Source: Spartobacteria bacterium | GTDB lineage: Bacteria > Verrucomicrobiota > Verrucomicrobiia > Chthoniobacterales > UBA10450 | Length of the DNA stretch: 64,000 bases | NCBI GenBank assembly: GCA_003167365.1 | Contig: PMTM01000004.1 | Location: 62,001-126,000, forward strand | Direction of reading: 5' to 3' | Part shown: positions 7,968-56,914 of the stretch, piece by piece | Position numbering within the stretch: the stretch's first letter is position 1 | Layout of the letters: each line of letters begins with the position of its first letter | Translations under genes and position numbers: made by a program | Notes under the pieces: generated by a model | The model's input: the letters and a program-made list of their open reading frames with translations, nothing else | Told to the model about the DNA's origin: nothing | The model's database searches: none

Positions 7968-8564
7968 TTACTCGTTACCGATCGCTCGTTCCAGAACAGT
8001 AAACGCCTCTTCGAGATCTTTCCCGAAAGTGACGACTCCTCCTTTATGTCCGGCCATGACAAAAATCTTCCCGCTTTTCACGTCCGTGGTTTTGAAAAGG
8101 CGCCGCACCTCGTACGCCATTTCGGGCGTGCCGTACTCAACCTCCTTCGATGTGGTCGGGGCATGGCCCAGGAGCGCCGCCCACAACTTTAGGTTATGGC
8201 CATGAATGACCGCGTCGGCCTTTGCTTCCGATTCATAAACCGCCGCATGCGTCAGCGATTCGGATGAGGCAATAGCAGAACCTTCACATCGGAGCCAGTT
8301 CCTCGCGAAATCGTGCGCCACTACTCTGGCGCAGTCAGCGGGTGTCAGCTCGAAAATTCCGCCAGTCGCCGAAGCGGTAATGTAAAAGCCGTTGGTTGCG
8401 CCGTCCCTGATGCTCAGGTTTCCGAACCCGATCCCATCTGCGTCCATCCCGATCACTCCCAATCGGCGAAGTTTTTGGCGGCATGCGTTCAACTCGGCGA
8501 AGCCGTCAAATGGAACAGCCGGAACAACCTCGTGTTCGCACGTGAATTTGATGTATTCGCTCAC
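7968..8564 (-). CDS. Class II aldolase/adducin-family protein (MtnB- or DrdA-like)
   Basis: The 198-residue protein has the class II aldolase fold: the phosphate-binding GFGNLSIRD, FYITASATGG, the zinc-ligand pair in AVIHGHNLKLW, and a later histidine in VMAGHKGGVV. Its start overlaps the stop of the upstream isomerase gene by 4 bp, so the pair forms an operon. With that isomerase it could act as methylthioribulose-1-phosphate dehydratase (methionine salvage) or as an aldolase of the 5-deoxyribose/DHAP shunt. No MtnK kinase, MtnC or MtnD lies nearby, so the choice is open. Confidence 0.72.
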   Translation of the reverse strand: MSEYIKFTCEHEVVPAVPFDGFAELNACRQKLRRLGVIGMDADGIGFGNLSIRDGATNGFYITASATGGIFELTPADCARVVAHDFARNWLRCEGSAIASSESLTHAAVYESEAKADAVIHGHNLKLWAALLGHAPTTSKEVEYGTPEMAYEVRRLFKTTDVKSGKIFVMAGHKGGVVTFGKDLEEAFTVLERAIGNE

Positions 8565-9667
8565 GGCGAATGCTCGGGGAAAAGCTCAAGGATACTTTTT
8601 TCGTCCGCATTGCAGACGCCCCGCTCGGTAATTAATCCAGTCACCAGCCGTCTCGGTGTAACGTCGAACCCGTAGTTTGCCGCGGGGCTGTCTTCCGGTG
8701 CGACATGCACTTCGACGTGCCGGCCGTCGAGCCACCCATCGGCGTGCTTGACCTCGTCCGCGCCGCGCTCCTCGATCGGAATCTCCAAACCGTCGCGGAT
8801 TTTCCAATCGAAGGAAGACGAAGGTAAGGCCACGTAGAAAGGAATCTGATTGTCTTTCGCCGCCAGCGCTTTCAAATAAGTCCCAATCTTGTTCGCAACA
8901 TCCCCCGTGTAAGTGGTTCGATCGGTTCCGACAATCACCAGGTCCACCTCGCCGCGCTGCATCAAATGTCCGCCGGTGTTGTCCGCGATCAACGTATGAG
9001 GCACACCATGCTGACCGAGTTCCCAGGCGGTGAGTTTCGAACCCTGATTCCGCGGCCTGGTTTCATCGATCCAGACATGAACAGCCAAACCGTTGTCATG
9101 TGCGGCGTAAATCGGCGCCAGGGCGGAACCGTAATCGACAAACGCGAGCCATCCCGCGTTGCAATGAGTGAGCACATTGACCGGCTTCCCGGCTTTCTTT
9201 CGTGCAATTTGCGAAATCAGATGCAGGCCGTGCTCTCCGATCCTCCGACAGTGTTCCGCGTCTTCCTCGGCAATCTGCTTCGCTGTATTCAAAGCGATGG
9301 CAATCTTTTCTCGCGCGGTTTTCCCCTCGGCGATGCTCGTTAATTGCCGCTCGATCGCCCAGGCAAGATTCACCGCTGTCGGTCTGGTCGCAGCGAGTTG
9401 CTTTGCGGCAACGTCCAAATGTTGATCCAACGAATCCTTCTCCCTAGCGCCGAGGGCGGCGAGATACATCCCGAATCCCGCGCTCGCCCCGATCAAACCG
9501 GCTCCTCGCACATGCATCTCCCGGATCGCAATCGCCATTTGCTCCACTGTCGTGACTTCTTCGATCACGAAGCGGTGCGGCAAGAATCGCTGATCGATCA
9601 ATTGCACAACATCGTCGTCATCGGCTTTGAGCCAGATCGTTCGGAAATGTTGGCCACCGACCTTCAT
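8561..9667 (-). CDS. mtnA: S-methyl-5-thioribose-1-phosphate isomerase family protein
   Basis: The preferred start is the ATG at 9667, giving 368 residues beginning MKVGGQHFRTIW, as in the family; upstream in-frame codons look non-coding. Family signatures are VRGAGLIGASAG, the catalytic cysteine in LTHCNAGWLAF, the catalytic aspartate in VGTDRTTYTGDVANKIGTY, and the Arg-rich C-terminus. The enzyme isomerises an aldose 1-phosphate to a ketose 1-phosphate. The stretch HCNAGWLAFVDYG differs from the more usual HCNAG-LATAGYG of methionine-salvage MtnA, and I associate it with deoxyribose/DHAP-shunt relatives. It is followed by the aldolase with a 4-bp overlap. Confidence 0.85.
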   Translation of the reverse strand: MKVGGQHFRTIWLKADDDDVVQLIDQRFLPHRFVIEEVTTVEQMAIAIREMHVRGAGLIGASAGFGMYLAALGAREKDSLDQHLDVAAKQLAATRPTAVNLAWAIERQLTSIAEGKTAREKIAIALNTAKQIAEEDAEHCRRIGEHGLHLISQIARKKAGKPVNVLTHCNAGWLAFVDYGSALAPIYAAHDNGLAVHVWIDETRPRNQGSKLTAWELGQHGVPHTLIADNTGGHLMQRGEVDLVIVGTDRTTYTGDVANKIGTYLKALAAKDNQIPFYVALPSSSFDWKIRDGLEIPIEERGADEVKHADGWLDGRHVEVHVAPEDSPAANYGFDVTPRRLVTGLITERGVCNADEKSILELFPEHSP

Positions 9668-9760
9668 GTCTTTGTGACATGTGCGATTTGACGGTGAATA
9701 CGTCAACTCATGATGATCGATTATGGCAGCCAATCGATGAAGTTCACTCGATCCTGTTAT

Positions 9761-10147
9761 ATGAAGCCTCCATTTACACTTGGCGTCGTCGGTCACTTCG
9801 GGTTAGCGGTGCGCGATCCGGAGAAAAGCGCGAAATGGTTCGAGCGCGCGCTCGGTTTGCGTAAGCAGTTTGAGTTCGAAAACGGCGTCGCGGTCGGCAA
9901 CGACAACGTGACGATTGCGCTATTCAAAGGCAAGCCGTGGCCGAAAACGATCGAGCATATGTCATTTCATCTGCCGAACATGGCGACATTGCGAAAGGCG
10001 CTCAAATACCTGAAGAAGCACAAGGTTGCCGTAGAAGATCCCGGCGACGAAATCGGCCCGGAAGGGCCCGGCTCGAAAAACATGGGTCTCTGGTTTCACG
10101 ATCCCGATGGCTACCGTTGGGAACTCAGTGTGCAGGGCGGGAAATAA
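9761..10147 (+). CDS. VOC/glyoxalase-fold protein
   Basis: The chosen ATG gives 128 residues. The protein reads as a single vicinal-oxygen-chelate unit: LGVVGHFGLAVRDPEKSAKWFERALG at the start, then IEHMSFHLPNM and LWFHDPDGYRWEL at the end. These give two of the metal-ligand histidines and the terminal Glu. Members include glyoxalases, dioxygenases and resistance proteins; the substrate cannot be inferred. It is divergent from the isomerase gene, with about 90 bp between them. Confidence 0.8.
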   Translation: MKPPFTLGVVGHFGLAVRDPEKSAKWFERALGLRKQFEFENGVAVGNDNVTIALFKGKPWPKTIEHMSFHLPNMATLRKALKYLKKHKVAVEDPGDEIGPEGPGSKNMGLWFHDPDGYRWELSVQGGK

Positions 10148-10191
10148 GCGAGGCAATTGACCACCCGGACGTAGGCTGACAACCTTCACGC

Positions 10192-10524
10192 ATGCCGCAA
10201 CGCCAGCGATATCTCTTCGTCTGCATCAACCGCCGAGCTGAAGACAACCCAAAGGGGTCGTGCACCGCGCGTGGTTCGGAAGAAGTGCATCGGGCATTGA
10301 AAGAACAGCTCGCCGCGCGCGGGTTAGCCAAGGTCGAGGCGCGGGTTTGCACGTCGAGCTGCTTGGATCAGTGCTCGTCCGGCGTTACCATTTTGGTTGA
10401 GCCCGATCACTTTTTCTACGGTCGCGTCACTGTGTCAGACGTCCCGGAGATCGTGGAAGGGATCGCGAACGATCGACGGGTCGAGCGGCTCGTGCTAACA
10501 GCCGAAGACTTGGAGAAAGGCTAA
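10192..10524 (+). CDS. Thioredoxin-like [2Fe-2S] ferredoxin
   Basis: The 110-residue protein has the cysteine pattern of thioredoxin-fold 2Fe-2S ferredoxins: C11, then C24 after twelve residues, and later C53 and C57, with an extra C61. The FVCINRR opening and the GVTILVEPDHFFYGRV core match the (2Fe-2S) ferredoxin domain family found in many bacteria. It probably carries electrons in the cytoplasm. It follows the VOC gene by 44 bp on the same strand and may be co-transcribed with it. Confidence 0.82.
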   Translation: MPQRQRYLFVCINRRAEDNPKGSCTARGSEEVHRALKEQLAARGLAKVEARVCTSSCLDQCSSGVTILVEPDHFFYGRVTVSDVPEIVEGIANDRRVERLVLTAEDLEKG

Positions 10525-10904
10525 GCGGCCGCGCATTGGGACGCTACCAATGCAACAGGCGCGCCAAGGTCGCGGATGCGTGCCTTCACCGTTTCACAAC
10601 GCTCGCGTTCGCGAACTGCATCGGCCTCCGGCAAATGCTGCGCTTGATATGGAGGTCGCGCTGGCTTCAAGAATATCTCGACAACATCATTGGCGATGCA
10701 GACGCGATGAAGTGTTGAAGTCGTCGGACCTTCTTCGGCTTCGGCGAGCAAGTTGTCCCTGATCGCAATGTAAGCAGTGATCTCATCGAGCGCGTATTTC
10801 AAATGCCTGTGCTCAACGGGTTTGGCCAATGCCTGCGGGCGCTTCTCCGAATCGGATATCGGGATAACTCCGGCGTATCCCCTGAGCGCGTGAGATAGCT
10901 GCAT
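10521..10904 (-). CDS. Hypothetical protein, 127 residues
   Basis: This is a weakly supported frame convergent with the ferredoxin gene, overlapping its stop by 4 bp. The predicted protein is soluble, has a helical middle (LKYALDEITAYIAIRDNLLAEAEE) and no motif I recognise. It fills an otherwise empty 535-bp gap before the NYN gene, which is the main reason for listing it. It could be spurious. Confidence 0.35.
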   Translation of the reverse strand: MQLSHALRGYAGVIPISDSEKRPQALAKPVEHRHLKYALDEITAYIAIRDNLLAEAEEGPTTSTLHRVCIANDVVEIFLKPARPPYQAQHLPEADAVRERERCETVKARIRDLGAPVALVASQCAAA

Positions 10905-42547: not shown

Positions 42548-45500
42548 ATGGCTGCTGCGAGCGAAGCGAACCCAATCCTCAACAACCCCTACGAGGAGCC
42601 GTTGCTGCACTACGCCACCAATCTAGAGGGTGAGCTTGATTACTCGAAGGTCGAGAAAAACCGACGCATCTTCGCCGGGGCGCTTCAGACGATTCCTCTC
42701 CCGCAGCGGCGACAACAAGAAGACCTGCTGAAGATGCAGGATTTCGCCGCCACAAACTATGGAACACATTTGGTAAACCTTCTTCGCAAGGAGGTCGCGG
42801 CTTGGCGGGACGCCAAGTATCCGAACACAACTCGCGTCACGCGCGAGCTGCTCCATTTCTGGTTTCTCAACGAAGAACGAGCAGACAACTTAAAACTTTT
42901 CTTCGCGCAGCGCGAAGCCGTCGAAACGGCGATCTACCTGAACGAAGTCGCCGACAAATCCAATCCTGGGCAAAACATCCTGCGGCAGTTGCAAACTGCG
43001 CAAGCCATCTCAGGAGATCCCCAAAGCAATCTTCCCCGCATCGCGTTCAAGATGGCCACGGGCGCGGGGAAGACGGTCGTGATGGCGGCGCTGATCGTTT
43101 ACCAATATTTCAATCGTGTAGAATATCGGAACGACATCCGCTTTGCTGACTGCTTCTTGGTGGTGACCCCAGGCGTAACCATCAAGAACCGACTCGCCGT
43201 CCTTCAAGTCGATCCGCGTACTAGCGCCGACGCACTCGACTATTACTACGCGCGTTGGCTTGTCCCGGCATCGTGGCGGCGAGAACTGCTTCAGATCAAT
43301 GCGCGGTTGGTCATCACGAACTATCACGCGTTCGAACCGAAAACTCTGCAAGGCAACAAACGCTCTCCGTTCGATGGGAAACGTGATTCAGCCGGGAAAA
43401 AGCAGGAAGGCCGCGAGGACTTCAACCAGGTTGTTCGCAGGCTGCTCGGCAACCTCAAGCCGGGATCCCGGTTGTTGATCCTCAACGACGAAGCTCATCA
43501 TTGTTATCTCCCTAAACAAGACAATCGAGTCGCTGAAGGCGAGGATACTGACGAAGAAAACGAACGCGCGGCCGTTTGGTTTAACGGACTGCGTCAAATC
43601 GCACAGCGCTTCAAAGTGCGCCACGTCTACGACCTCAGTGCGACCCCGTACTTCCTGACCGGCTCCGGTTACGAACCCTACACATTGTTCCCTTGGGTTG
43701 TGTCCGACTTCGGTTTGATCGAAGCAATCGAATCCGGCCTCGTGAAGATCCCTTTCCTGCCCACTTCCGACGACACGCAGGCGCTCGAATTGCCCGTGCT
43801 TCGAAACCTATATGAACACGTAAAAGAACGGCTGCCGCGTGCGGGTCAGCGACGCCGGCGCGCAGCAGCCAAGGAAAGGGGCGAAGCGGTTCGCGAGGCC
43901 CCGCCGCACCTCCCGGACACAGTTAAGGCTGCGCTCGCGCAGTTCTATAGGCATTACGAGGAAGAGTTCCATCGACGGAAGCATTCGTTAGGCAGTGACG
44001 GCGAGCGGCAGCTGGAAATGACTGACACGCCACCCGTGTTTATCATCGTATGTAACAATACCTCCGTTTCAAAAGAGGTATTCAAATATATCGCCGGGTA
44101 CGAGCTCACGCCGGCTGAAGAGGGTGAAAAGCCGGAAGTTGTCACCGGAGTTCTCGACCTCCTGTCAAATTTCGACCCCGGTACACAACACCCGCGCACA
44201 AAACCACCGACGCTGCTCATCGACAGCGACGCCCTTGAGAACTCCGGACAAATCGACGGCGATTTTAAGAAGGTCTTTGGTTCCGAAATCGCGAATTTCA
44301 AACGCGACTACGTTCGCATTCACGGTCAAGGCGCTGCTGAAGACATGACCGATGCCGAAATCCTTCGAGAGGTTGTAAATTCTGTAGGTAAGCCAAACTC
44401 GCTTGGCGCTCACATCCGTTGCGTCGTTTCCGTTTCGATGCTGACAGAAGGATGGGATGCGAACACGGTCACCCATATCATGGGACTTCGCGCTTTTGGA
44501 TCGCAGCTTCTGTGTGAACAGGTTGCCGGCAGGGCATTACGTCGAAAGAGCTACTTTCTGCAAGCCTACGATAGGCACGGCAACCCCACTACTGACAAGC
44601 GCCGCATCGCGATTCGAAAGTTCCCTCCTGAGTACGCTCACATCATCGGCGTTCCATTCAAGCTCTTCAAAGGCGGCACGACGAAAGTCCCCGACCCGCC
44701 GGATTACACTCGCGTCTTTGCGCTCAAGGAACGAGAGAAGTTCGAAATCACGTTTCCGAACGTCGACGGCTACCGAATTGAATATCCTGATGGTCCCCTA
44801 AATCGCGATTTCTCCGCCCTCGACGACTACGTCATCGACGGCTCGACCTTGCCGACGCAGACCGTCATGTCCACTGCTGTCAGCGCCGAAACGCAAAAGC
44901 TAACCGTCGTCGATGTCCTCGAACGCCGCGAACAGGAGATCATTTACCTCATCACGAAAGACCTTTTGCGAAACCACTTCTCAACCGATAAAGGCGCACC
45001 AGAGTTCCAAAAATTCCACGAGCTAAAGGCCATCGTCACCGAGTGGTATCACACGAAAGTTCGCGTCCTGGGCAAAGACCCGAAATGGAAAAAGCTTATC
45101 TATTTCCACGATCCCAAACCCATGGTCGATCACGTCGCTCGCGGAATATTCCCCGGCACGTCGCCCGAAGAACGAATCCGTCCGGTCCTGAACTACTACA
45201 ACCCGACCGGCAGCAGCCGCCACGTGAATGGTAACACCACGAAAGACACGTATCCCACTACATCTAGTCATGTGAACGTCGTCGTCGTGGACAGCGGATG
45301 GGAAGGCAAGGCCGCTAAAGCTCTGGATCTAATGGCTGGCGACGGTGAAATTGAGTGTTGGGTGAAGAATAACTTTCTCAGTTTCAAAATTCCTTACGTG
45401 GACAAGGATGGAGTCGAACGTGACTACATGCCCGACTTCATCGTCCACTGCATGACGCAGGCTGGCGATCGAATGAATCTAATCATTGAAATTTCCGGCA

Positions 45501-45703
45501 TGCGTTTCGATAAAACTGCCAAGCGCTGGTTCGTCGAGCACCGGTGGCTCCCCGCCGTAAACAGCGTCGCGGCCAAACACGATTGGAGCCGTTGGGACTT
45601 CCTTGAACTGGACAGTGAAGCAGCCGTCGCCGATCTGCGCGACAAGGTCCTCGGTAAACTTAAGCAGCCATTTACCTCCCTCGCCGAAGTTGCTGTAGCC
45701 TAA
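42548..45703 (+). CDS. Type III restriction Res-like SF2 helicase-nuclease
   Basis: The 1,051-residue protein has a full SF2 helicase core: Walker A ATGAGKT (170-176), DEAH at 314-317, SATPYFLTG, and motif VI-like [10 protein letters not shown] near 660. The C-terminal nuclease region has PDFIVHC (Asp963) and IIEISG (Glu981), where the lysine usual two residues after the glutamate is Ser983. It is the Res partner of the adjacent Mod. It would translocate on unmodified DNA and cut. It is the first gene of six in close series; mod begins 11 bp after its stop. Confidence 0.85.
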
Positions 45704-45714
45704 ATCCGCCTGCT

Positions 45715-48300
45715 ATGCCCAAGCCTCCGAAGCCGATCAAATCCTTTAAGCACAAACACGAGAAACGGGCGCATGTGCCGTCCTCGGAAGAAGCCGGCTA
45801 CGAAGACGCCAATCCAAAAGTTCAGGACGCTTCAGCCGTGGCTTCTTTTCCGCGCAATCCAATCGTTCATCGCGGCCAGGACCCGGAGCTTTTCTGGATG
45901 CACAAGTACGGACCCGAAGACAGGACGATTGCGAGTGACGTGGATATCCGATCGCTTTACCGCCACGAACATATAGCACCGGAACAGCTGATTCGCAGCC
46001 TGTACAAAATTGTAGAAGCCGATCCAAACCAAACCGACTTCTTTCGCGTTAATGAATTGTTCGGGAATGCTCTTTCTCATAGCGAACTCGAAAAAATCGG
46101 CGATTACTACGTCCACTCAGACGGTTGGACGAACCGGCTGATTCAGGGGGACAGCTTGCTGGTGATGACATCCCTCCTCGAGCGAGAAGGCATGGCTGGA
46201 AAAGTACAGTGCATCTATATAGATCCTCCGTACGGGATAAAATACGGATCCAATTGGCAAATCAAAATTAACAACCGCGCGGTAAAGGAGGACGACGACT
46301 CGCTGACCGGCGAGCCGGAAATGATTAAAGCGTATCGCGACACATGGGAGCTCGGCATTCACTCCTATTTAAGCTACCTTCGCGATCGCCTGCTGATCGC
46401 TCGCGACCTCTTGCATGACTCGGGTTCCTGTTTCGTTCAAATGTCGGATGAAAACGTTCACCTGGTCCGTTCCCTAATGGACGAGGTCTTCGGAAGCGGC
46501 AATTTTGTAAGCCTCATTAGTTTCACAACTACAAGTGGGTTCGAAACTACTACATTAGCCCGAAACGGCGACTATCTAATCTGGTATGCGAAAGAAGTAG
46601 CTTCGATAAAGTATCGCCAGCTTTATCTCGAAAAAGATGTTTCGGTTGAAGGCGGACGCTACCGTTGGATTCAATTCGAAGATGGAACGTATCGAGGCCT
46701 AACGGCTCGGGAAATGCGCGGCGAGGACTTGATTCCACCGAAGGCACGATTGTACCAACCCACTAGTCTTATATCTCAAGGAGCCGGCGCTGCTGAATCA
46801 CGTGAATTCAACTACAAGAACAAGATTTATGATTGCGGCGCCGGGAATCATTGGAAAACGACCATTGCTGGTCTAGCCAATCTCGCCAAGGCAGGACGGA
46901 TTCATGTGGCAAGAAATAGCATTCGGTACGTACGATATGCGGACGACTTCCCGTTTCAGCCGATCACGAATTTTTGGGATGATACTGCGACGGGAAACTT
47001 TACAGACGAAAAGATTTATACGGTTCAAACAAATATAAAGGTAATTCAGCGCTGCCTTTTGATGACAACAGATCCGGGCGACTTAGTGCTCGACCCCACG
47101 TGCGGCGCAGGCACCACGGCCTACGCCGCCGAACAATGGGGCCGCCGATGGATAACAGTCGATACATCGCGCATCGCACTGAGCATCGCCAAGACGCGAT
47201 TAGGAACGGCGACTTTTCCTTATTACCAACTTCACGACAGCGAGAGCTGCGATATTCGGCAAGGATTCGTTTACAAGAAAGTCCCACACATCACACTCAA
47301 AAGCATCGCTAACGGCGAGCAACCAGAGGAAGAGCTTCTTTATGACGTGCCAACAGAGGACAAGAAGCGGCTACGGGTCGCAGGCCCTTTTACCGTAGAG
47401 ACACTTCAAAGCTACGAGCCGATTTCACCGGAAGAACTAGCAGCTCGGAGGGATAGTGAAGAAGGACTCGCCGGCTTTGAAGATCTGGTTTTTGAGCATT
47501 TAAAATCTGCTGGCATCAAGACCGGTGACAAGACTGAGAACGCTGTTTTCGTACGCATCGACCGGCTGGCATCATCAAACCTCCATGCCGAAGGTTTCTA
47601 CAATACCCCGGACGGCGAGAAAAAAGCCTACCTTCATATCGGCCCGAAGTTCGGCACGATCAGCAAACGTGCAGTTGAGGAAGCGATCAAGGAGTGTCGA
47701 CAAAAAGGCGACGCAGGCTGGCTGATCATTCTTGGCTTCTCATTCGACTCGGCGATTCAGAACCGGCGTGAAACGTTTTCGATGGGGACATTCGAAGTTA
47801 CGCGCGTCCGAATGCACGATGACCTTTTGCAAGAAGGTCTGCTGAAGAAAGACAAGAAGGCTGCATCCTTCGTCACCATCGGCGAACCCGACATTCGTCT
47901 GCATAAAAACAAGGACGGCACCGGCCAGGTCCAGATCGCCGGCCTAGACATCTACGACCCGATCAAAGACATCGTGAAAAGCCGGGATGTGCACGACATC
48001 GCCTACTGGATGCTCGACGACAACTATGACGGTTCGAATTTCGTCGTTAAACAGGTCTTCTTCTGCGGCGGCGACAAAGACGAATTCGAGGCTTGGAAAA
48101 AGGGAATCGATTCTCTCGCCGCCCAATCCGCCCGTCGCCGCGCGGAGTTAACCCTCAAAATCCAACTCGATGACGAAGCCTTCGGCCGCATCTACGGTCA
48201 CCAAAGTCACCCATTCAAAGCGAAGACGGGGCAGAAGATCGCCGTCCGGGTGATTAGTCAGTTTGGGGAGGAGACAACGAAAGTTCTTCCCGTGGATTAG
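45715..48300 (+). CDS. Type III Mod-like adenine-N6 DNA methyltransferase
   Basis: The 861-residue protein has motif [11 protein letters not shown] at 170-178 and motif I-type DPTCGAGTT at 460-468, the beta-class order used by type III Mod proteins. Between them lies a long region that should include the target-recognition domain. The C-terminal 330 residues ([34 protein letters not shown]) exceed ordinary Mod length and have no motif I know. It would mark host DNA and supply specificity to Res. It lies between res and the GHKL ATPase (5-bp gap). Confidence 0.87.
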
Positions 48301-48305
48301 AAATT

Positions 48306-50285
48306 ATGGCTGGCGAATTTCATCTGCAGATCCTTGGTCGAACGATCGAACACCTCGGAAGTCAGATGTACCGGCACCGCGCTCCATCCATTGCTGAGCT
48401 GGTTGCAAACTGTTGGGATGCGGGCGCAAGGAACGTTTGGGTAACGGTTCCTAACGAAGCCAACTATGATCCTGACGGCTCTTCTATTTCGATATTGGAT
48501 GACGGCCAAGGGATGACTGCAGAAGCCGTGCAGGATCAATACTTGGTAATCGGCCGTAATCGACGAGACGAAGATGGTGGCGAAAACCAGGGCCGGAAAG
48601 TTATGGGCCGAAAAGGAATCGGCAAACTGGCTGGCTTCGGCCTGGCTTCCCGCGTGACCATAACGACATGGGCGTCGCGGATGCCTAAGGCCGTTCATTT
48701 CACCATGTCGCTCCAAGAGCTGAAGCGCGATGCTGGCGAGGTTGCGGATGTCAAGTTTCCCTGGGGTGAAGTCGACAAAAGCGCTGGTTGGCCGGCTTCG
48801 GGCACTATGATCACGCTGTCGCAGCTTCGCCACGCATCATCAATAAACGTTGCGGCACTGACCGAAACTCTCGCGAGGAGGTTCTCGCGTACGACTCGCG
48901 GGCAAATGGCGATACACGTAAATGGAGCTGTCGTAACCGAACCTGCGATTGAATTGCTTTTTCAGAGCCCCGCAGAGGACGACTTTAATGAGGAAACTCT
49001 CCCAACTGGCGCCAAGGTGTTATATCGCTATGCGTTCGCAAAGACGCCCATCAGATCGAAAGAGTTGCAGGGATTTGCGATCTATGCTCATGGCCGAACA
49101 GCACAAGCTCCGCCCTTCTTCTTCAACGTAGAATCCACTGCATCGGGGCAGCACTCTACCCGATATGTATTCGGCGACATTCAAGCTGACTACTTAGATG
49201 ATGGGGTTAACGATGAATCGGATCTGACTTCTACCGATCGGCAAGAGCTGGATTGGGAGAAAGAAGAACTGAAGGAGCTTAAAGAATGGGGCGAAGCACT
49301 CACACGCCGCGTTTTGATCGAATGCGCAGAGCTGAAGGGCAAAGAAGTTGAACAGTGGGTCCTAGAAATACCTGAGTTCAAAGACCGTCTGACTCGACTC
49401 GACAAAGCCGTTACAAAAGAGATCTCACGGTTCCTGATGGTACTTGGACAACGTTCACCGAAAGGAGATGAACGCACGCTGGATTTGGCTAATGCGTTAA
49501 TAAGAGCATACGAATTCCGCAACTTTCACGATGTTGTCGAAGATATAAATGCCGCGGGGCAAGACCCGGAAAAGCTTGAGCAGCTCTTAGCACGGTTACA
49601 TGACTGGAAGGTCCTGGAGAGCCGCGCAATTCTTGAAATTGTTAAGGGCCGCCTCAGCGTCATTGAGCGCCTGCGCGACATGGTAATCGCGAACAAGCCT
49701 GAAACTCCGTCGAAAAATATCACCGACAATCTACACGACCTACTCGCGGAATATCCTTGGCTCTTTAATCCCGAGTGGCAGGTTTTCGCTGAGGAAAAAT
49801 CGATCGGCAAAATCCTTAAGGACTGGGGTCACAAAGACGCGAAAGAGGAAATGGAGAACAAGAGGATCGACTTTCTCGCATTTCACAGAGATGAGGATAT
49901 TCTAGTCATCATAGAGCTAAAGCGACCAGCGCACGCGGTGGAACTAGAAGAGTTGCAAAGACTGCAGCGGTACCAGGATGAGCTCGGAAAAGCTTACAAG
50001 CGATGTCTTGCCGTCCTCGTTCACGAAGGGCAGATCAATGTCCGTGAATCAACGCTGGATGGTTTCTTAAGATCGACTTCCTTTCAGCTACTAAAATGGA
50101 GCGATATTTTCGCACGCGCTTCACGCTTTTACTCACATTATCGCGCAGTGCTTGAAGGCGACGTCGGAGCACCGGGCTTCGTTAGGAAAGAGACCGAAGT
50201 CTTACGTACGCGCGAGATCCTAGAGACTGATACCTCGAGGCGCGGCGAGAAGCGTGAACAAGGCTTAGGAGATACCGAGCCTTGA
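48306..50285 (+). CDS. MORC/MutL-like GHKL ATPase fused to Shedu-like PD-(D/E)XK domain
   Basis: The 659-residue protein opens with a GHKL ATPase: N-box ELVANCWDAGA (Glu31, Asn35), G1 box LDDGQGM (64-70) and G2 box GRKGIGKLAGFGLA (101-114), the form seen in Hsp90/MutL/MORC proteins. A long helical middle part (about 300-490) includes the acidic-basic coiled coil DWEKEELKELKEWGEALTRR. The C-terminal domain has KRIDFLAF (Asp522) and IIELKRP (Glu537, Lys539), then LQRLQRYQDEL, as in Shedu/DUF4263 nucleases. An ATP-driven clamp that positions a nuclease on DNA is a reasonable model. Its stop overlaps the dcm start (TTGA). Confidence 0.83.
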   Translation: MAGEFHLQILGRTIEHLGSQMYRHRAPSIAELVANCWDAGARNVWVTVPNEANYDPDGSSISILDDGQGMTAEAVQDQYLVIGRNRRDEDGGENQGRKVMGRKGIGKLAGFGLASRVTITTWASRMPKAVHFTMSLQELKRDAGEVADVKFPWGEVDKSAGWPASGTMITLSQLRHASSINVAALTETLARRFSRTTRGQMAIHVNGAVVTEPAIELLFQSPAEDDFNEETLPTGAKVLYRYAFAKTPIRSKELQGFAIYAHGRTAQAPPFFFNVESTASGQHSTRYVFGDIQADYLDDGVNDESDLTSTDRQELDWEKEELKELKEWGEALTRRVLIECAELKGKEVEQWVLEIPEFKDRLTRLDKAVTKEISRFLMVLGQRSPKGDERTLDLANALIRAYEFRNFHDVVEDINAAGQDPEKLEQLLARLHDWKVLESRAILEIVKGRLSVIERLRDMVIANKPETPSKNITDNLHDLLAEYPWLFNPEWQVFAEEKSIGKILKDWGHKDAKEEMENKRIDFLAFHRDEDILVIIELKRPAHAVELEELQRLQRYQDELGKAYKRCLAVLVHEGQINVRESTLDGFLRSTSFQLLKWSDIFARASRFYSHYRAVLEGDVGAPGFVRKETEVLRTREILETDTSRRGEKREQGLGDTEP

Positions 50286-51370
50286 AGACGGCGCCGCCCC
50301 AACACACTGCAATCGATTTATTCTCTGGCTGTGGCGGCCTGACGCGGGGATTAAAGGAAGCTGGCTTCGGTGTCGTGGGTGCTGTCGAGCTTGATGAGGT
50401 CGCAGCCAAAACATATCGCCTGAACCATCCCGAGGTTGATTTGCTGTCGCAGGATATTCGAGCAGTGCAGCCGCGCAAATGGATGAAGCAGCTTCGCCTT
50501 AAATCAGGCGATTTAGATCTCCTCGCCGGTTGTCCGCCGTGTCAGGGTTACTCCACGCTCCGTACAAAAAACGGAGGAAAACGGAACCGCGACGGGCGCA
50601 ATCCGCTTGTCCGAGAGATGTTGAGGTTCACGCGAGTCCTCAAGCCCAAAGCGGTGATGATGGAAAACGTACCCGGACTTTTGGGCAAGACAGCATTATT
50701 AGACCTGCAAACGGGGCTCGAGCAGATCGGCTACGAAGTGCAATGCAATGTCAGAGACGCACAATTTTACGGCGTTCCTCAACGCCGGCGTCGCTTGATC
50801 CTATTGGCGGGTAGAGGATTTGAAATTCCTTTCGCCCAGGCGCGAAGAAATTGCCTAACGGTGCGAAAGGCGCTAGCTGGTTTGAAGCGAGTAAGGACCA
50901 GCGGAGACAAATTACATGATTTTCCCGAACGTCGCGATCCAGAGATCCAAAAGCTGATCTCACAGATTCCTATCAATGGCGGCAGCCGGCTAGATCTCGG
51001 CACAGCGAATCAGCTGCGCTGCCATAAGAACTGCGACGGCTTCAAAGACGTCTATGGCCGGATGGCTTGGAACGAAAAAGCGCCCACTATTACCAGCGGC
51101 TGCTTTAATCCTTCAAAAGGCCGTTTTCTGCACCCGCGCAGCAATCGCTGCATCACGATGCGTGAAGCGGCAATTTTGCAAGGCTTCCCCAGGCGCTACA
51201 AATTTGATTCAGGCGCCGGCAAACAGGCGGTAGCGTTAATGATCGGAAACGCTCTTCCGCCTGAATTCATTCGTCGGCACGCAAAGAAGATCCGAAAGGC
51301 AATTGAGTCCCACTGCGACAGCCGGCGAAAGAATGTCCACGCAAGACATAGAGAAAAAGCTGCTCGATAA
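50282..51370 (+). CDS. dcm: DNA cytosine-5 methyltransferase (Dcm family)
   Basis: A TTG start overlapping the upstream stop gives 362 residues; no ATG is better placed. Motifs run in order: DLFSGCGGL (I), AGCPPCQGYS with the catalytic cysteine (IV), MMENVPGLL (VI), PQRRRRLILLA (VIII), ITMREAAILQGFP (IX/X region) and GNALPPE (X). It methylates cytosine in a DNA target and, with vsr two genes on, forms a classical Dcm-Vsr set. Its 3' end overlaps the helicase gene by 38 bp. Confidence 0.92.
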   Translation: MKTAPPQHTAIDLFSGCGGLTRGLKEAGFGVVGAVELDEVAAKTYRLNHPEVDLLSQDIRAVQPRKWMKQLRLKSGDLDLLAGCPPCQGYSTLRTKNGGKRNRDGRNPLVREMLRFTRVLKPKAVMMENVPGLLGKTALLDLQTGLEQIGYEVQCNVRDAQFYGVPQRRRRLILLAGRGFEIPFAQARRNCLTVRKALAGLKRVRTSGDKLHDFPERRDPEIQKLISQIPINGGSRLDLGTANQLRCHKNCDGFKDVYGRMAWNEKAPTITSGCFNPSKGRFLHPRSNRCITMREAAILQGFPRRYKFDSGAGKQAVALMIGNALPPEFIRRHAKKIRKAIESHCDSRRKNVHARHREKAAR

Positions 51371-54300
51371 TCTAACCGACGGCCAAAAGAGCGCCGTACG
51401 ATCAGAAAGACGGAGGTTGCTCGTAGTAGCGGGAGCCGGCTCCGGCAAGACGGAGGTCATGGCCCGTCGCGTGGCGTGGTGGATCGGGATCGAAGGGGTT
51501 CCAAAAAACCGGATCGTCGCTTTCACGTTCACCGAAAAAGCCGCGAAGGAGATGAAATTTCGCGTCCGTCGTTGGATCGGCGTGATTACTCCGTCCGGTG
51601 AAGACGTGAATCTTGGCGGCATGTACGTCGGAACGATTCACGGTTATTGCCTTGAAAAGCTCCGGGAATTCTGGCCGGACGATTATCACAACTTCGACAT
51701 TCTCGATGAGGCCGCACGTGCGGCTCTGATCTTGCGCGGTTTCAACGGTGTTCTCGGACTAGGCGGCCTACGTGCGGCACTCGGGCCGATGCAAGGGATG
51801 TCCGCTACCGTCGAGCAGTTCGGCCAAGCTTATGACCAGCTGCATGAGCATAACAGATTCCATGTTAAGCTAACTAACCAAATAGCGCCGTACGAACTTG
51901 GTGCTGTAGAACAGGAATGGTGCAAGGGAGCGACGCTCCAAACCAATGTTGGGATTACGAAGGAAGCCAAGGCCTTCGCCATCTCTGCCGCACGCTATTA
52001 CGCGTATCTTCGTTGTCGGCGCTTCTTGGATTTCAGCAGTTCCCAGACTGAGTTCATTCGGCTTTTGAGGGCGGACCTGACAAGACAAAAGCAGCTTGCT
52101 GAGGATCTGATTCACCTGGTGGTCGATGAGGTGCAAGATATTAATCCCGTACAGCGTGACCTTGTTGAGCTTCTCGTCGGCAAAGGCGGCAAGCTGACGA
52201 CAGTGGGTGATCATCGCCAGGCGATCTACGGATTTCGGGGGGCCAAAGTCGAAATCATCGGTGAACTCTGGAATGAGTTCAAAGCAGCATCCGACGCGGA
52301 GGTGATCGACCTTCAACAGAACTTTCGCTCGACGCCGCGGATCATCGAAATTGCCAACCGCTGGGCGGAAACGATTACGCCAGCAGGCGGAATGACGACG
52401 GTGGACATGCTCCACGGGAAATCCGATCGATTGGACACACATCCATCGCACATCGCGATGATCGGTTTCCCAGCGCGCGAAAAAGAGGCTGCTTGGATCG
52501 CCAAGGCGATCCGAGCCCTGGTACCTTCCGAGGCTGAAGGCGTCGAGCATGACAAACGGGATGGCAAAAAGCGCGGACTGTCCTTGTCCGACATTGCAGT
52601 GCTCGCAAGATCATCCACTGATGTTCGAACATATATGAAGGCGCTGGAGGCGGATGGCATTCCCTCCATCGTCCGCGCCGGACCAGATCTTTTTTCACAA
52701 CCTGAGATACTATTTTTCTTGGGAGCGCTCGCTTTGACCGGCGGGCTGGACCAATTTTATGGCTCGGAGCACAATCCAAAGAGCCTGCCCCGTAGGATAA
52801 ATGATGTCCTACAGTGTGCCCCGCAACCTGAAGCAGTCCTTCGCGCCGCCGCACGCCAGCTCCGCCAGTCCGGCCTCGCTGTGACCCGCGACGTAGAGGA
52901 GCGATTAATTTTCGCGTCCTCCGCCATTCGCCAGAGAATTGAGAACATCCGCACATTCGGCGCCGGCCAGGTGAAATTTCTTCGCTGCAAGAGATTGCGA
53001 GATTTTCTCGGGAAGTCCGGCAAGCTGCGTCGTCTTTTCCCACAGCAGCTCTTTCACATGTTGCTCGAAGAAGCGGAGGTCGAGCACTGGGACACTTGCG
53101 AAGGTCGCGGAGAGTCCGCTTTGTTCCATCTTGGCGCCTTGAGCGGCCTAATCACGGGAATCGAAATGCCGGGTTGGACCAGTACGGAAAGCTACAAGTG
53201 GCAAATCATCGGCCTCTGTCAGTACGGTTCGGAGTCGGGACGCACCGAAGAGCAACCCCTTATCGTTAAGCCCGACGCGGTGACAATCAGCACGGTGCAT
53301 GGGGTTAAAGGACTCGAATTTGCAGCAGTGTTTCTGGCAGACGTTTGCGCCCGTCGCTTTCCGAGCCAGATGGCAAGAAGGGTTTCCCCCTTGCCCCTGT
53401 CCGGCGCAATTCGGAAGGAAATAGATATAGAGGGATTGTCTGACAACGAGAACTACGACGGAGAACGACGATTGATGTACGTTGCTCTCACCCGTGCAGA
53501 GAGATTTCTATTCGTAAGCCATTCGTCGAAGCAAACCTCCAAATTCATCAAAGAGCTGCAGCCAATCTTCCAAGCGTCGGGTGGAACAGTAACGGCGAAC
53601 TCGGAGCGTTTGCTGCGCGATCTTAAGTACGCTCCGCTGGAATATAAGCGCGAGACGCAACTGGCGACGTCGTTCTCAGATCTCCGGTACTACTTGGAGT
53701 GCCCCCACGATTTTTATTTACGCAAAGTTCTCGGTTTTGCTCCAACCATCGACCAAGCGTTCGGCTATGGCCGCGGCATCCATAATTTGATGCGCGCAAT
53801 TCACTCCGATCCTGCGCGCTGGGCCGCTTTAGCCAAAGATCATACCAAGCTCGCGACGGAGATTCAAAAGCTCATCGACAAAGGACTGTTCTATCTCCGT
53901 TACACCACTGGCGAGCCGGCGGAGAACATGCGCGCGAAAGGAGTGCGGATCGCAGTCGATTACGTAAAGCATTTCGTCGATGAATTACGCGATGTGACTT
54001 TCGAGCCCGAAAAGGAATTCGAAACGCTTGTCGAGTATGAGGACGGCGAAGGCGGCGCTCTCATCTCGGGCGCAATCGACATTGTACGACGAGATGATCC
54101 ACCAAGAGTGACTCTCATTGATTTCAAGTCCGGCGACCCGGAAAGCGATAAACATCAAAGTCTCGATGAAGAAGAAATGCGGCTTCAAGTCGGCATCTAC
54201 GCCGTCGCCGCTAAGCGCGAGCTCGAGTACCAGCCGGATAAGGGGCTCGTCCGCTACCTCGACGTTGACCGCGAACACAATGATAAACACGAACTCGAAG

Positions 54301-54488
54301 TTCCGCTCGATGACGACTCCGTCGCTGACGCCAAGAAAACGGTGATCGTAACAGCCACTGCGATTCGTGATCGAAAGTTTAAATCGGGGCCGAAAAAGGC
54401 GGCACGTGACGGTCAACTGCGCTGCAAGACTTGCGACTTTCTAGGTTTCTGCGGGATGCCAGAGCCGATGTCGCTGAAGCGTTCATAA
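51333..54488 (+). CDS. UvrD-type SF1 helicase with RecB/AddB-like nuclease domain
   Basis: The ATG at 51333 gives 1,051 residues; a TTG 30 bp earlier is possible. SF1A helicase motifs are present: VAGAGSGKTEV (about 32-42), TFTEKAAKEM, VDEVQDINPVQ, GDHRQAIYGFRGA, STVHGVKGLEF and YVALTRAERFLFVSH. A nuclease follows: LISGAIDIVRR, LIDFKSGDP and QVGIYAV, with cysteines in YYLECPHDFY and LRCKTCDFLGFCG that look like an AddB/Cas4-type iron-sulfur site. It would unwind and degrade DNA. It overlaps dcm by 38 bp and vsr starts 1 bp after it. Confidence 0.87.
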   Translation: MSTQDIEKKLLDNLTDGQKSAVRSERRRLLVVAGAGSGKTEVMARRVAWWIGIEGVPKNRIVAFTFTEKAAKEMKFRVRRWIGVITPSGEDVNLGGMYVGTIHGYCLEKLREFWPDDYHNFDILDEAARAALILRGFNGVLGLGGLRAALGPMQGMSATVEQFGQAYDQLHEHNRFHVKLTNQIAPYELGAVEQEWCKGATLQTNVGITKEAKAFAISAARYYAYLRCRRFLDFSSSQTEFIRLLRADLTRQKQLAEDLIHLVVDEVQDINPVQRDLVELLVGKGGKLTTVGDHRQAIYGFRGAKVEIIGELWNEFKAASDAEVIDLQQNFRSTPRIIEIANRWAETITPAGGMTTVDMLHGKSDRLDTHPSHIAMIGFPAREKEAAWIAKAIRALVPSEAEGVEHDKRDGKKRGLSLSDIAVLARSSTDVRTYMKALEADGIPSIVRAGPDLFSQPEILFFLGALALTGGLDQFYGSEHNPKSLPRRINDVLQCAPQPEAVLRAAARQLRQSGLAVTRDVEERLIFASSAIRQRIENIRTFGAGQVKFLRCKRLRDFLGKSGKLRRLFPQQLFHMLLEEAEVEHWDTCEGRGESALFHLGALSGLITGIEMPGWTSTESYKWQIIGLCQYGSESGRTEEQPLIVKPDAVTISTVHGVKGLEFAAVFLADVCARRFPSQMARRVSPLPLSGAIRKEIDIEGLSDNENYDGERRLMYVALTRAERFLFVSHSSKQTSKFIKELQPIFQASGGTVTANSERLLRDLKYAPLEYKRETQLATSFSDLRYYLECPHDFYLRKVLGFAPTIDQAFGYGRGIHNLMRAIHSDPARWAALAKDHTKLATEIQKLIDKGLFYLRYTTGEPAENMRAKGVRIAVDYVKHFVDELRDVTFEPEKEFETLVEYEDGEGGALISGAIDIVRRDDPPRVTLIDFKSGDPESDKHQSLDEEEMRLQVGIYAVAAKRELEYQPDKGLVRYLDVDREHNDKHELEVPLDDDSVADAKKTVIVTATAIRDRKFKSGPKKAARDGQLRCKTCDFLGFCGMPEPMSLKRS

Positions 54489-54489
54489 A

Positions 54490-55011
54490 GTGGCTGACGT
54501 TTTCGACAAGGCAAAGCGCTCACAAATCATGTCGCGCGTCCGCTCGCGAGGAAACACGTCTACTGAAAAGAAACTTATTACACTACTTCGTGAAGAGGAA
54601 ATTATCGGTTGGCGACGCCATCTCCCTTTACCCGGAACGCCGGACTTCGTGTTTCCTAAGCATCGCGTCGCGGTTTTCGTCCATGGGTGTTTCTGGCACG
54701 GCTGTCCAAAACACATCCAGTTTCCTTCGACTAGAGCGAGCTGGTGGCGCAGAAAACTGGAGCGGAACAAAGCGAGAGACCGAATCGCAGCCCGAACCCT
54801 TCGCAGCTCAGGGTGGACGGTTGTGCGGATCTGGGAGTGTGATCTAACCGTCAAACGTCGAATGTCGGCGCTTAAAAAGATAAAAGTAGCGCTTCAATCA
54901 AGGCTGGCGGGCAAGGATAGTGCGATGGGGTTCGACGTTTTGCCGGCTAATTCACTTCCGGCTGCGTCAACAGGTCCATCAAGAGGCCGAATTCCTCAAA
55001 CTAAATTCTAA
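54490..55011 (+). CDS. vsr: Very short patch repair endonuclease (Vsr)
   Basis: A GTG start one base after the helicase stop gives 173 residues. Vsr signatures are MSRVRSRGNTSTE, LPGTPDFVFPKHRVAVFVHG (Asp52), GCFWHGCPKH with zinc/active-site residues, WWRRKLERNKARD and VVRIWECDL. Vsr nicks T:G mismatches that arise when 5-methylcytosine deaminates, so it limits the mutational cost of the Dcm encoded upstream. About 35 extra C-terminal residues look unstructured. It is the last gene of the operon. Confidence 0.92.
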   Translation: MADVFDKAKRSQIMSRVRSRGNTSTEKKLITLLREEEIIGWRRHLPLPGTPDFVFPKHRVAVFVHGCFWHGCPKHIQFPSTRASWWRRKLERNKARDRIAARTLRSSGWTVVRIWECDLTVKRRMSALKKIKVALQSRLAGKDSAMGFDVLPANSLPAASTGPSRGRIPQTKF

Positions 55012-55406: not shown

Positions 55407-55693
55407 ATGGGCACGCTACAGACGCCACGGACTTAAAATTAAAGTTTTCGCATTTTCTTTGCTTTTCGTTGTACATCAATTCGACGACATTTTCCGGGCA
55501 AAACGCTAGGGCTTTTGGTTTGAAAGGCGTTTGTATTGGGGCGGTAGAAATGTCGTTACTCTTGCACAAATCCTTGCACAACTGTTCGCCATCGCAGAAC
55601 ACGCTTCGAGGAAAGGTTTGACTTGATTAGGCCGGTCGAAGTCGCTAGGACACGGTAGAAATTGCACGTGCCGTTTTACCCCAATTGGCTTCG
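55407..55693. promoter_or_regulatory. Divergent promoter region before the phosphoesterase gene
   Basis: No gene is supported in about 290 bp. Two cttgcacaa units occur at 55561-55582; the same pair lies inverted at 60002-60023, before the DUF5131 gene. Confidence 0.35.
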
Positions 55694-56914
55694 ATGACTC
55701 ACGACAAGGCGAGAATCTGGTTCTTCACAGACGTGCACGGGGCAAACGAATGCTTCCGAAAGTTCCTGAATTCAGTCAAGAATGAAAATAGACCAAACGT
55801 TCTAATTATCGGAGGAGATATTACGGGGAAACAGGTCATTCCTCTTGTCGAAGATGATGTGGGGTGCATTAGCGCGACAGTCGAAGGAGGCGCGGTTAAA
55901 TTTCCTGTCACGAAATTGTCGGACTTCAAGAAACGGCTTTCCGATATTGGTTATTATCCGTACGAATGCAATGAAACGAGCTACAAACGATTTGTAACCG
56001 ATCCGAACTACCATCGGGAGATCATTGATCGTCTTGTCAAAGAGCGCGTAGAGGAATGGGTCAAATTGGCAGATACGCTGCTCCCCTCGCGTGATGAGTG
56101 CCAAGTTTTTATTAATCCTGGAAACGATGATCCCTTCTTTATCGATCCCATTCTCGATGCAAGTTCCAAACTGATTCGTCCAGAAGGTAAGATTTGTGAT
56201 CTTCCGTGCGGATTGAAGATGCTTTCCACGGGCTATTCCAACTGGACGCCGTGGGACTGTCCTAGGCAATGCAAGAATCGGGATGATGAAACAGAACTCC
56301 TAACAAGAATTGCGGAGATGACAGGCCGGCTGTCCGCGCATGATTCTAAGCATTTGCTATTCAATTTCCATTGCCCTCCGCGAGACACCACGCTTGACCT
56401 CGCCAACAAAATTGATCCGAACACAAAACAAAAAGCGGCGGGTTTGAGAGGTGCCGCGAAGGAACACGTGGGTTCTACCGCGGTTCGGCAAGCGATCGAA
56501 GTCTGGCAACCTTTGGTGGGATTACATGGCCATATTCACGAGGTCACTGCAAAGAAGGATAAGATTGGCAATACAATCTGCTTCAATCCTGGAACCGACT
56601 ATTACACCGGACATCTACAGGGAGTTTATTTGCAGATAAACAAGAGGGGCGAAATCGAAGCTGATCTTCTAACAGAAGAACGCTATCCCCGGGTAAAGAA
56701 GAACAAACCTCGATCATTATGGGACGCCCTTCTATCAATAATCCCAGTCGTTGGACCCGCAATTGAAGCGCATCAAAGCAGGACGCTAGATGAAAAGATT
56801 CTTGAGCAGATCACCGAAATTAAAGACGATCTGGAAGAGATGAAGAAGCGAAACATTCCTTCGACGTCGGGCTCAAACATAGATTCTGTAAAATCTAGGG
56901 AGGAAGAGAGATGA
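55694..56914 (+). CDS. Calcineurin-like metallophosphoesterase
   Basis: The ATG at 55694 gives 406 residues. All five metallophosphoesterase blocks are present: FFTDVHG (Asp13, His15), LIIGGDITG, FINPGNDDPFF, LFNFHCPPRD and GLHGHIHEV. After the catalytic domain the chain has a hydrophobic stretch (LLSIIPVVGPAI) and a coiled-coil tail (DEKILEQITEIKDDLEEMKKRN). It hydrolyses a phosphoester, possibly a nucleotide, and may associate with the membrane. The permease gene starts inside its stop codon (ATGA). Confidence 0.82.
   Translation: MTHDKARIWFFTDVHGANECFRKFLNSVKNENRPNVLIIGGDITGKQVIPLVEDDVGCISATVEGGAVKFPVTKLSDFKKRLSDIGYYPYECNETSYKRFVTDPNYHREIIDRLVKERVEEWVKLADTLLPSRDECQVFINPGNDDPFFIDPILDASSKLIRPEGKICDLPCGLKMLSTGYSNWTPWDCPRQCKNRDDETELLTRIAEMTGRLSAHDSKHLLFNFHCPPRDTTLDLANKIDPNTKQKAAGLRGAAKEHVGSTAVRQAIEVWQPLVGLHGHIHEVTAKKDKIGNTICFNPGTDYYTGHLQGVYLQINKRGEIEADLLTEERYPRVKKNKPRSLWDALLSIIPVVGPAIEAHQSRTLDEKILEQITEIKDDLEEMKKRNIPSTSGSNIDSVKSREEER

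Follow-up and report, generated by a model that had tools for sequence, protein, structure and literature searches.

The question raised by this locus is what a protein that joins a GHKL ATPase to a PD-(D/E)XK nuclease in a single chain does within a dense run of helicase, methylase and endonuclease genes, and with which of its neighbors it works. The window, meaning the whole stretch of DNA analyzed (64,000 nucleotides of a Spartobacteria bacterium contig), holds six nearly gapless genes on the same strand:

42548-45703 (+), type III-like restriction helicase of the BPTD_3080 family; belongs to a separate module within this gene run
45715-48300 (+), site-specific N6/N4 DNA methyltransferase, Mod-like; partner of the BPTD_3080 gene
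48306-50285 (+), GHKL ATPase / PD-(D/E)XK nuclease fusion, 659 aa; predicted restriction subunit, paraMORC3 / BbrUII-HgiDII-like
50282-51370 (+), C5-cytosine DNA methylase of the Dcm family, TTG start, 4-bp overlap with the end of the fusion; predicted protective partner
51333-54488 (+), UvrD/PcrA-type helicase with a C-terminal RecB-like nuclease (PDDEXK_1), overlapping dcm; unusual accessory
54490-55011 (+), Vsr mismatch endonuclease

The fusion ORF is intact and correctly bounded, with an ATG at 48306 and a stop at 50285. The stop of the upstream gene lies 5 bp before its start, and its N-terminus is in register with those of homologs. Further along, a calcineurin-like metallophosphoesterase gene (55685-56914) occurs on the same strand 3' of vsr, beyond a small reverse-strand ORF.

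Two of the neighbors were considered as conserved partners and rejected. The UvrD-RecB gene adjoins none of the 65 non-redundant relatives of the fusion gene, and no close homolog of its product (E below 1e-60) was found in 194 genomes of the phylum. The BPTD_3080 helicase and its methyltransferase (res-mod) are found elsewhere with other cargo and were therefore taken as a separate module; on plasmids, the varied cargo of their relatives includes DUF4747/DUF2075 genes and CBASS-like genes.

The ATPase half

The features of the N-terminal part of the chain are as follows:

48306-48845 (+), GHKL ATPase domain, about residues 1-180; HATPase_c_3 at 28-135, MORC3/Hsp90-like fold
48396-48425 (+), N box ELVANCWDAG, residues 31-40; predicted catalytic E31 and predicted Mg-binding N35
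48492-48515 (+), G1 box ILDDGQGM, residues 63-70; from sequence and conservation
48606-48641 (+), G2 box GRKGIGKLAGFG, residues 101-112; from sequence and conservation
48846-49265 (+), probable S5-like transducer domain, about residues 181-320; from the model and its MORC3/Hsp90 matches
49263-49688 (+), long helical linker, residues 320-461; candidate clamp or dimer arm, from the model

The Pfam model HATPase_c_3 matches residues 28-135 with an E-value of 4.6e-19, and the full set of GHKL residues is in place (E31/N35/D38, D65-G67-G69-M70 and G101-K107). Among 66 non-redundant relatives, E31, N35, D38, D65 and G67 are kept in all 64 that cover these positions, and G101, G104, G106 and K107 are conserved in 66/66. 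The three complete boxes claimed by the original prediction thus lie where it had placed them and are present in every covering homolog.

The whole chain was modeled with AlphaFold2 using an alignment of 51 homologs, giving a mean pLDDT of 84. The best matches of this model among solved structures are TRAP1/Hsp90 and the ATPase modules of MORC3 and MORC2; about 400 columns were aligned with MORC3 and TRAP1, with an S5-type domain following the GHKL domain. The GHKL-S5 module fold is common to the fusion and to the eukaryotic and prokaryotic MORC ATPases (TM-score of 0.57 on the target for MORC3), but the fusion differs from these in its fused nuclease and in the absence of the MORC-specific S5 motif, since no match to GhXhhpXXRhl was found in its sequence. 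Identification as a MORC protein proper was rejected on this ground, and the missing signature places the fusion with the paraMORCs. Of the MORC/MutL-like label first given to the ATPase, the MORC3 and Hsp90/TRAP1-like fold therefore stands, while the motif specific to MORC is missing.

The nuclease half

Two features describe the C-terminal part:

49623-50171 (+), Shedu/NucS-like nuclease domain, residues 440-622; modeled alone, pLDDT 91
49701-49922 (+), active-site span, from conservation: E466 (49701-49703), D522 (49869-49871), E537 (49914-49916) and K539 (49920-49922)

The nuclease motifs are RIDF at 520-523 and IELK at 536-539, giving the site E466-D522-E537-x-K539. The alignment of 51 sequences from which the model was built shows no variation at E466, D522, E537 or Y556 and almost none at K539; of the 66 non-redundant relatives, 62 retain D522, 61 retain E537 and 57 retain K539. 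The original prediction had positioned D522, E537 and K539 correctly but overlooked E466, the first acid of the site. Its central observation, GHKL boxes and a D...ExK site in one chain, is borne out by residues that are conserved in relatives.

Some relatives depart from this pattern. In one clade (L037, L066, L067, L077 and L080) the D and E are kept, methionine replaces the ExK lysine and Dcm is still adjacent, so that not every linked pair has the lysine. Two other GHKL relatives (L060 and L062) lack the D-E-K triad in their C-terminal part, and L062 is located between large helicase-like genes.

Assignment of the fold rests on sequence profiles and on realignment of the model. Profile-profile comparison (hhalign) of the nuclease domain with Shedu proteins from other genomes gave a probability of 97.7%, against 5% and 0.6% for two PD-(D/E)XK controls, the RecB-like domain and the Vsr of the window. 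When the domain profile was searched against PDB sequences (hmmsearch), NucS (E 2.2e-6), EndoMS (E 5.1e-5) and SduA (8ti8, E 6.6e-4) were recovered. Realigned on solved structures, the nuclease model matched E. coli SduA (8ps4) with a Z of 10.6 over 156/183 residues, followed by EndoMS (Z 10.3), NucS (Z 10.0) and B. cereus Shedu (Z 9.9); NucS and EndoMS are therefore as near to this domain as Shedu is. With plain Foldseek, nothing below E 0.001 was recovered for the domain; its relatives came from the realignment and the sequence profile, and phmmer of the single fusion sequence against the PDB returned nothing useful. The Pfam family SduA_C (DUF4263) scored 13.3 bits against a cut-off of 27 (E 0.097), and filing the fusion as Shedu by Pfam was rejected. 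Given the weak plain Foldseek result and this sub-threshold score, the domain is best called a Shedu/NucS-type nuclease and not a member of Pfam SduA_C. With this proviso, the assignment to the Shedu class made in the original prediction is backed by profile-profile, hmmsearch and structural evidence; a PD-(D/E)XK profile match and conserved D/E/K residues, the two points on which it was open to refutation, were both found.

Shedu SduA (8ps4, 8ti9) and NucS/EndoMS (2vld, 5gke) share the nuclease fold and the D-ExK site with the fusion, but are without a GHKL module and have other N-terminal domains and triggers.

Relation to known families

The architecture has already been described, and the fusion belongs to a known family, paraMORC3 or the BbrUII/HgiDII restriction enzymes. 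ParaMORC3 was described in restriction-modification gene neighborhoods (Iyer, Abhiman and Aravind, 2008; PMC2292703), in a paper that set its nuclease against RecB and not against Shedu/NucS. Like the fusion, paraMORC3 has an N-terminal GHKL domain, an S5 domain and a C-terminal RecB/RE-fold nuclease with E-D-ExK, and its neighborhoods contain methylases, helicases and Vsr, as does this locus with its dcm, vsr and res-mod genes. Nothing essential differs: the intact GHKL site, the S5-type domain, the E-D-ExK nuclease of RE fold and the restriction-modification neighborhood are all present, and only the UvrD-RecB neighbor is unusual.

The NCBIfam model NF050001 (BbrUII/HgiDII) covers both the ATPase and the nuclease halves of the fusion with 240.8 bits, below its equivalog cut-off of 550, and the characterized members are therefore distant. 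Both halves match, and the size and the C5 methylase partner are common to the fusion and these enzymes, but given its score the fusion represents a related subfamily, to which the recognition site is not transferable. A phage protein annotated as ParaMORC3 and adjoining Dcm scores 751 bits on the same model, which ties the two family names together. On the methylase side, M.HgiDII is a characterized 5mC methyltransferase with the site GTCGAC (PMC5867850).

More recently, a 2025 study of Vibrio put paraMORC3-like proteins in the Shedu group, and reported that E27A (ATPase glutamate) and K557A (nuclease lysine) each abolish defense by VcSduA, of Shedu type I-D (PMC12137116). In VcSduA a GHKL ATPase is likewise followed by a Shedu-type PD-(D/E)xK nuclease, and E27 and K557 are the equivalent catalytic residues. 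VcSduA is however described as a single-protein system, whereas the fusion, as most of its relatives, is paired with Dcm and so departs from that description. In the comparison below, stand-alone relatives were taken as VcSduA-like, the VcSduA sequence itself lying outside it.

Methylase pairing and phylogeny

In 53 of the 65 non-redundant relatives, a Dcm gene lies within 350 bp of the fusion gene, before or after it and in the same or the opposite orientation; in two more it lies slightly beyond this distance. The relatives with an adjacent Dcm are found on plasmids, on phage or prophage-type contigs and on chromosomes. In a further relative with 50% identity to the fusion (L064), a Dam-type N6-adenine methylase (7974-8831) follows in place of Dcm, a swap of methylase class. 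Vsr occurs within 2.5 kb in 15/65. In a relative with 45% identity (L051), a 595-aa AAA ATPase (AAA_21/AAA_15; 8880-10664) is located between the fusion gene and vsr. The adjacency of Dcm in most relatives points to restriction-modification. It had been overlooked in the original prediction, as had the published status of the architecture; of that interpretation, which is supported in part, the domain call holds.

In the phylogenetic tree, the four nearest relatives of the fusion, with which it groups at 100/100 support, are a protein of Planctomycetaceae, two proteins from viral contigs and one encoded in another genome of the query's phylum. Five relatives of 580-600 aa (L055, L057, L110, L113 and L140), beside which no methylase was found, form their own 100/100 clade apart from the query, and one of these stand-alone proteins, L055, scores just above the SduA_C cut-off that the query fails to reach. 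The program warned that some long branches meet in this tree, and the deep branching order was left out of use. The separation of the methylase-paired clade of the query from the stand-alone clade and the presence of UvrD-RecB in the operon are the less familiar aspects of this locus, and neither proves a new mechanism.

Proposed function and alternatives

We contend that the fusion probably serves as the ATPase-gated restriction subunit of a restriction-modification pair formed with the linked dcm gene and situated in a tight operon. Sequence and models show that the GHKL and nuclease sites are both intact, that the nuclease has a Shedu/NucS-like fold and that most relatives are paired with Dcm; support for a restriction-modification function comes from this pairing, including the relatives with a more distant Dcm or a Dam-type methylase, from the coverage of both halves by NF050001 and the high score of the Dcm-adjoining phage protein, from the conserved catalytic residues together with the characterized activity of M.HgiDII, from the separation of the query and its four nearest relatives from the stand-alone clade, and from the loss of defense in the VcSduA mutants. 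Counted against it are the NF050001 score below the cut-off and the ExM clade that is still Dcm-linked. Related Shedu nuclease domains also work without a methylase.

By analogy with the families concerned, the adjacent C5 methylase would mark host sites and thereby protect them, while the fusion may dimerize through its GHKL module and, on binding ATP, close as a clamp on DNA. ATP state, with hydrolysis as a presumed step, and recognition of a specific unmethylated site would then gate the E-D-ExK nuclease, leading to cleavage of invading DNA; Vsr, given its known function, would correct T:G mismatches arising from 5mC deamination.

The single-protein systems suggest another explanation, in which the fusion is a Shedu type I-D nuclease like VcSduA in which the GHKL module detects DNA ends, or some other feature of a phage, and then releases the nuclease, with Dcm as an independent neighbor. 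It has in its favor the architecture shared with VcSduA, in which a mutation in either half abolishes defense (PMC12137116), and a nuclease domain closest to SduA by structure and profile. We nevertheless consider it unlikely, as adjacency in 53/65 relatives is far above that of an accidental neighbor, the stand-alone proteins fall in a separate clade, and the query remains under the SduA_C cut-off which L055 just exceeds. That NucS and EndoMS, both mismatch endonucleases, are as near as Shedu, and that Dcm, a UvrD-type helicase and Vsr share one gene run, could instead indicate a repair complex, with a MutL-like ATPase and a NucS/EndoMS-like nuclease acting with Vsr and UvrD-RecB on Dcm-derived T:G mismatches. 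This is very unlikely, given that it is Dcm which recurs among the relatives, Vsr doing so far less often and UvrD never, and that the characterized family related to the fusion carries a restriction-enzyme annotation. A modification-dependent (type IV-like) enzyme cutting methylated DNA is the least credible of these explanations and most improbable: MspJI and AspBHI, which are modification-dependent, appear among the fold matches solely as generic PD-(D/E)XK matches, and an enzyme of this kind, stably linked to a cytosine methylase, would attack the host's own DNA.

A wider form of the restriction-modification proposal would treat the last four genes (fusion, dcm, UvrD-RecB and vsr), or all six, as one machine, in which the ATP-gated nuclease first cuts unmethylated sites and UvrD-RecB, loaded there, unwinds and degrades the invader. 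We regard this as quite unlikely; if true, it would parallel, on the side of restriction, mismatch repair by MutL and UvrD.

Significance

GHKL restriction enzymes that pair with a methylase and GHKL Shedu-like proteins that stand alone are shown to be branches of one family with a common Shedu/NucS-type nuclease. This raises the question of whether the two branches differ in what the ATP-gated module responds to, methylation in one and a different trigger, DNA ends for example, in the other, and a side-by-side comparison of both would be a direct test of such a difference.
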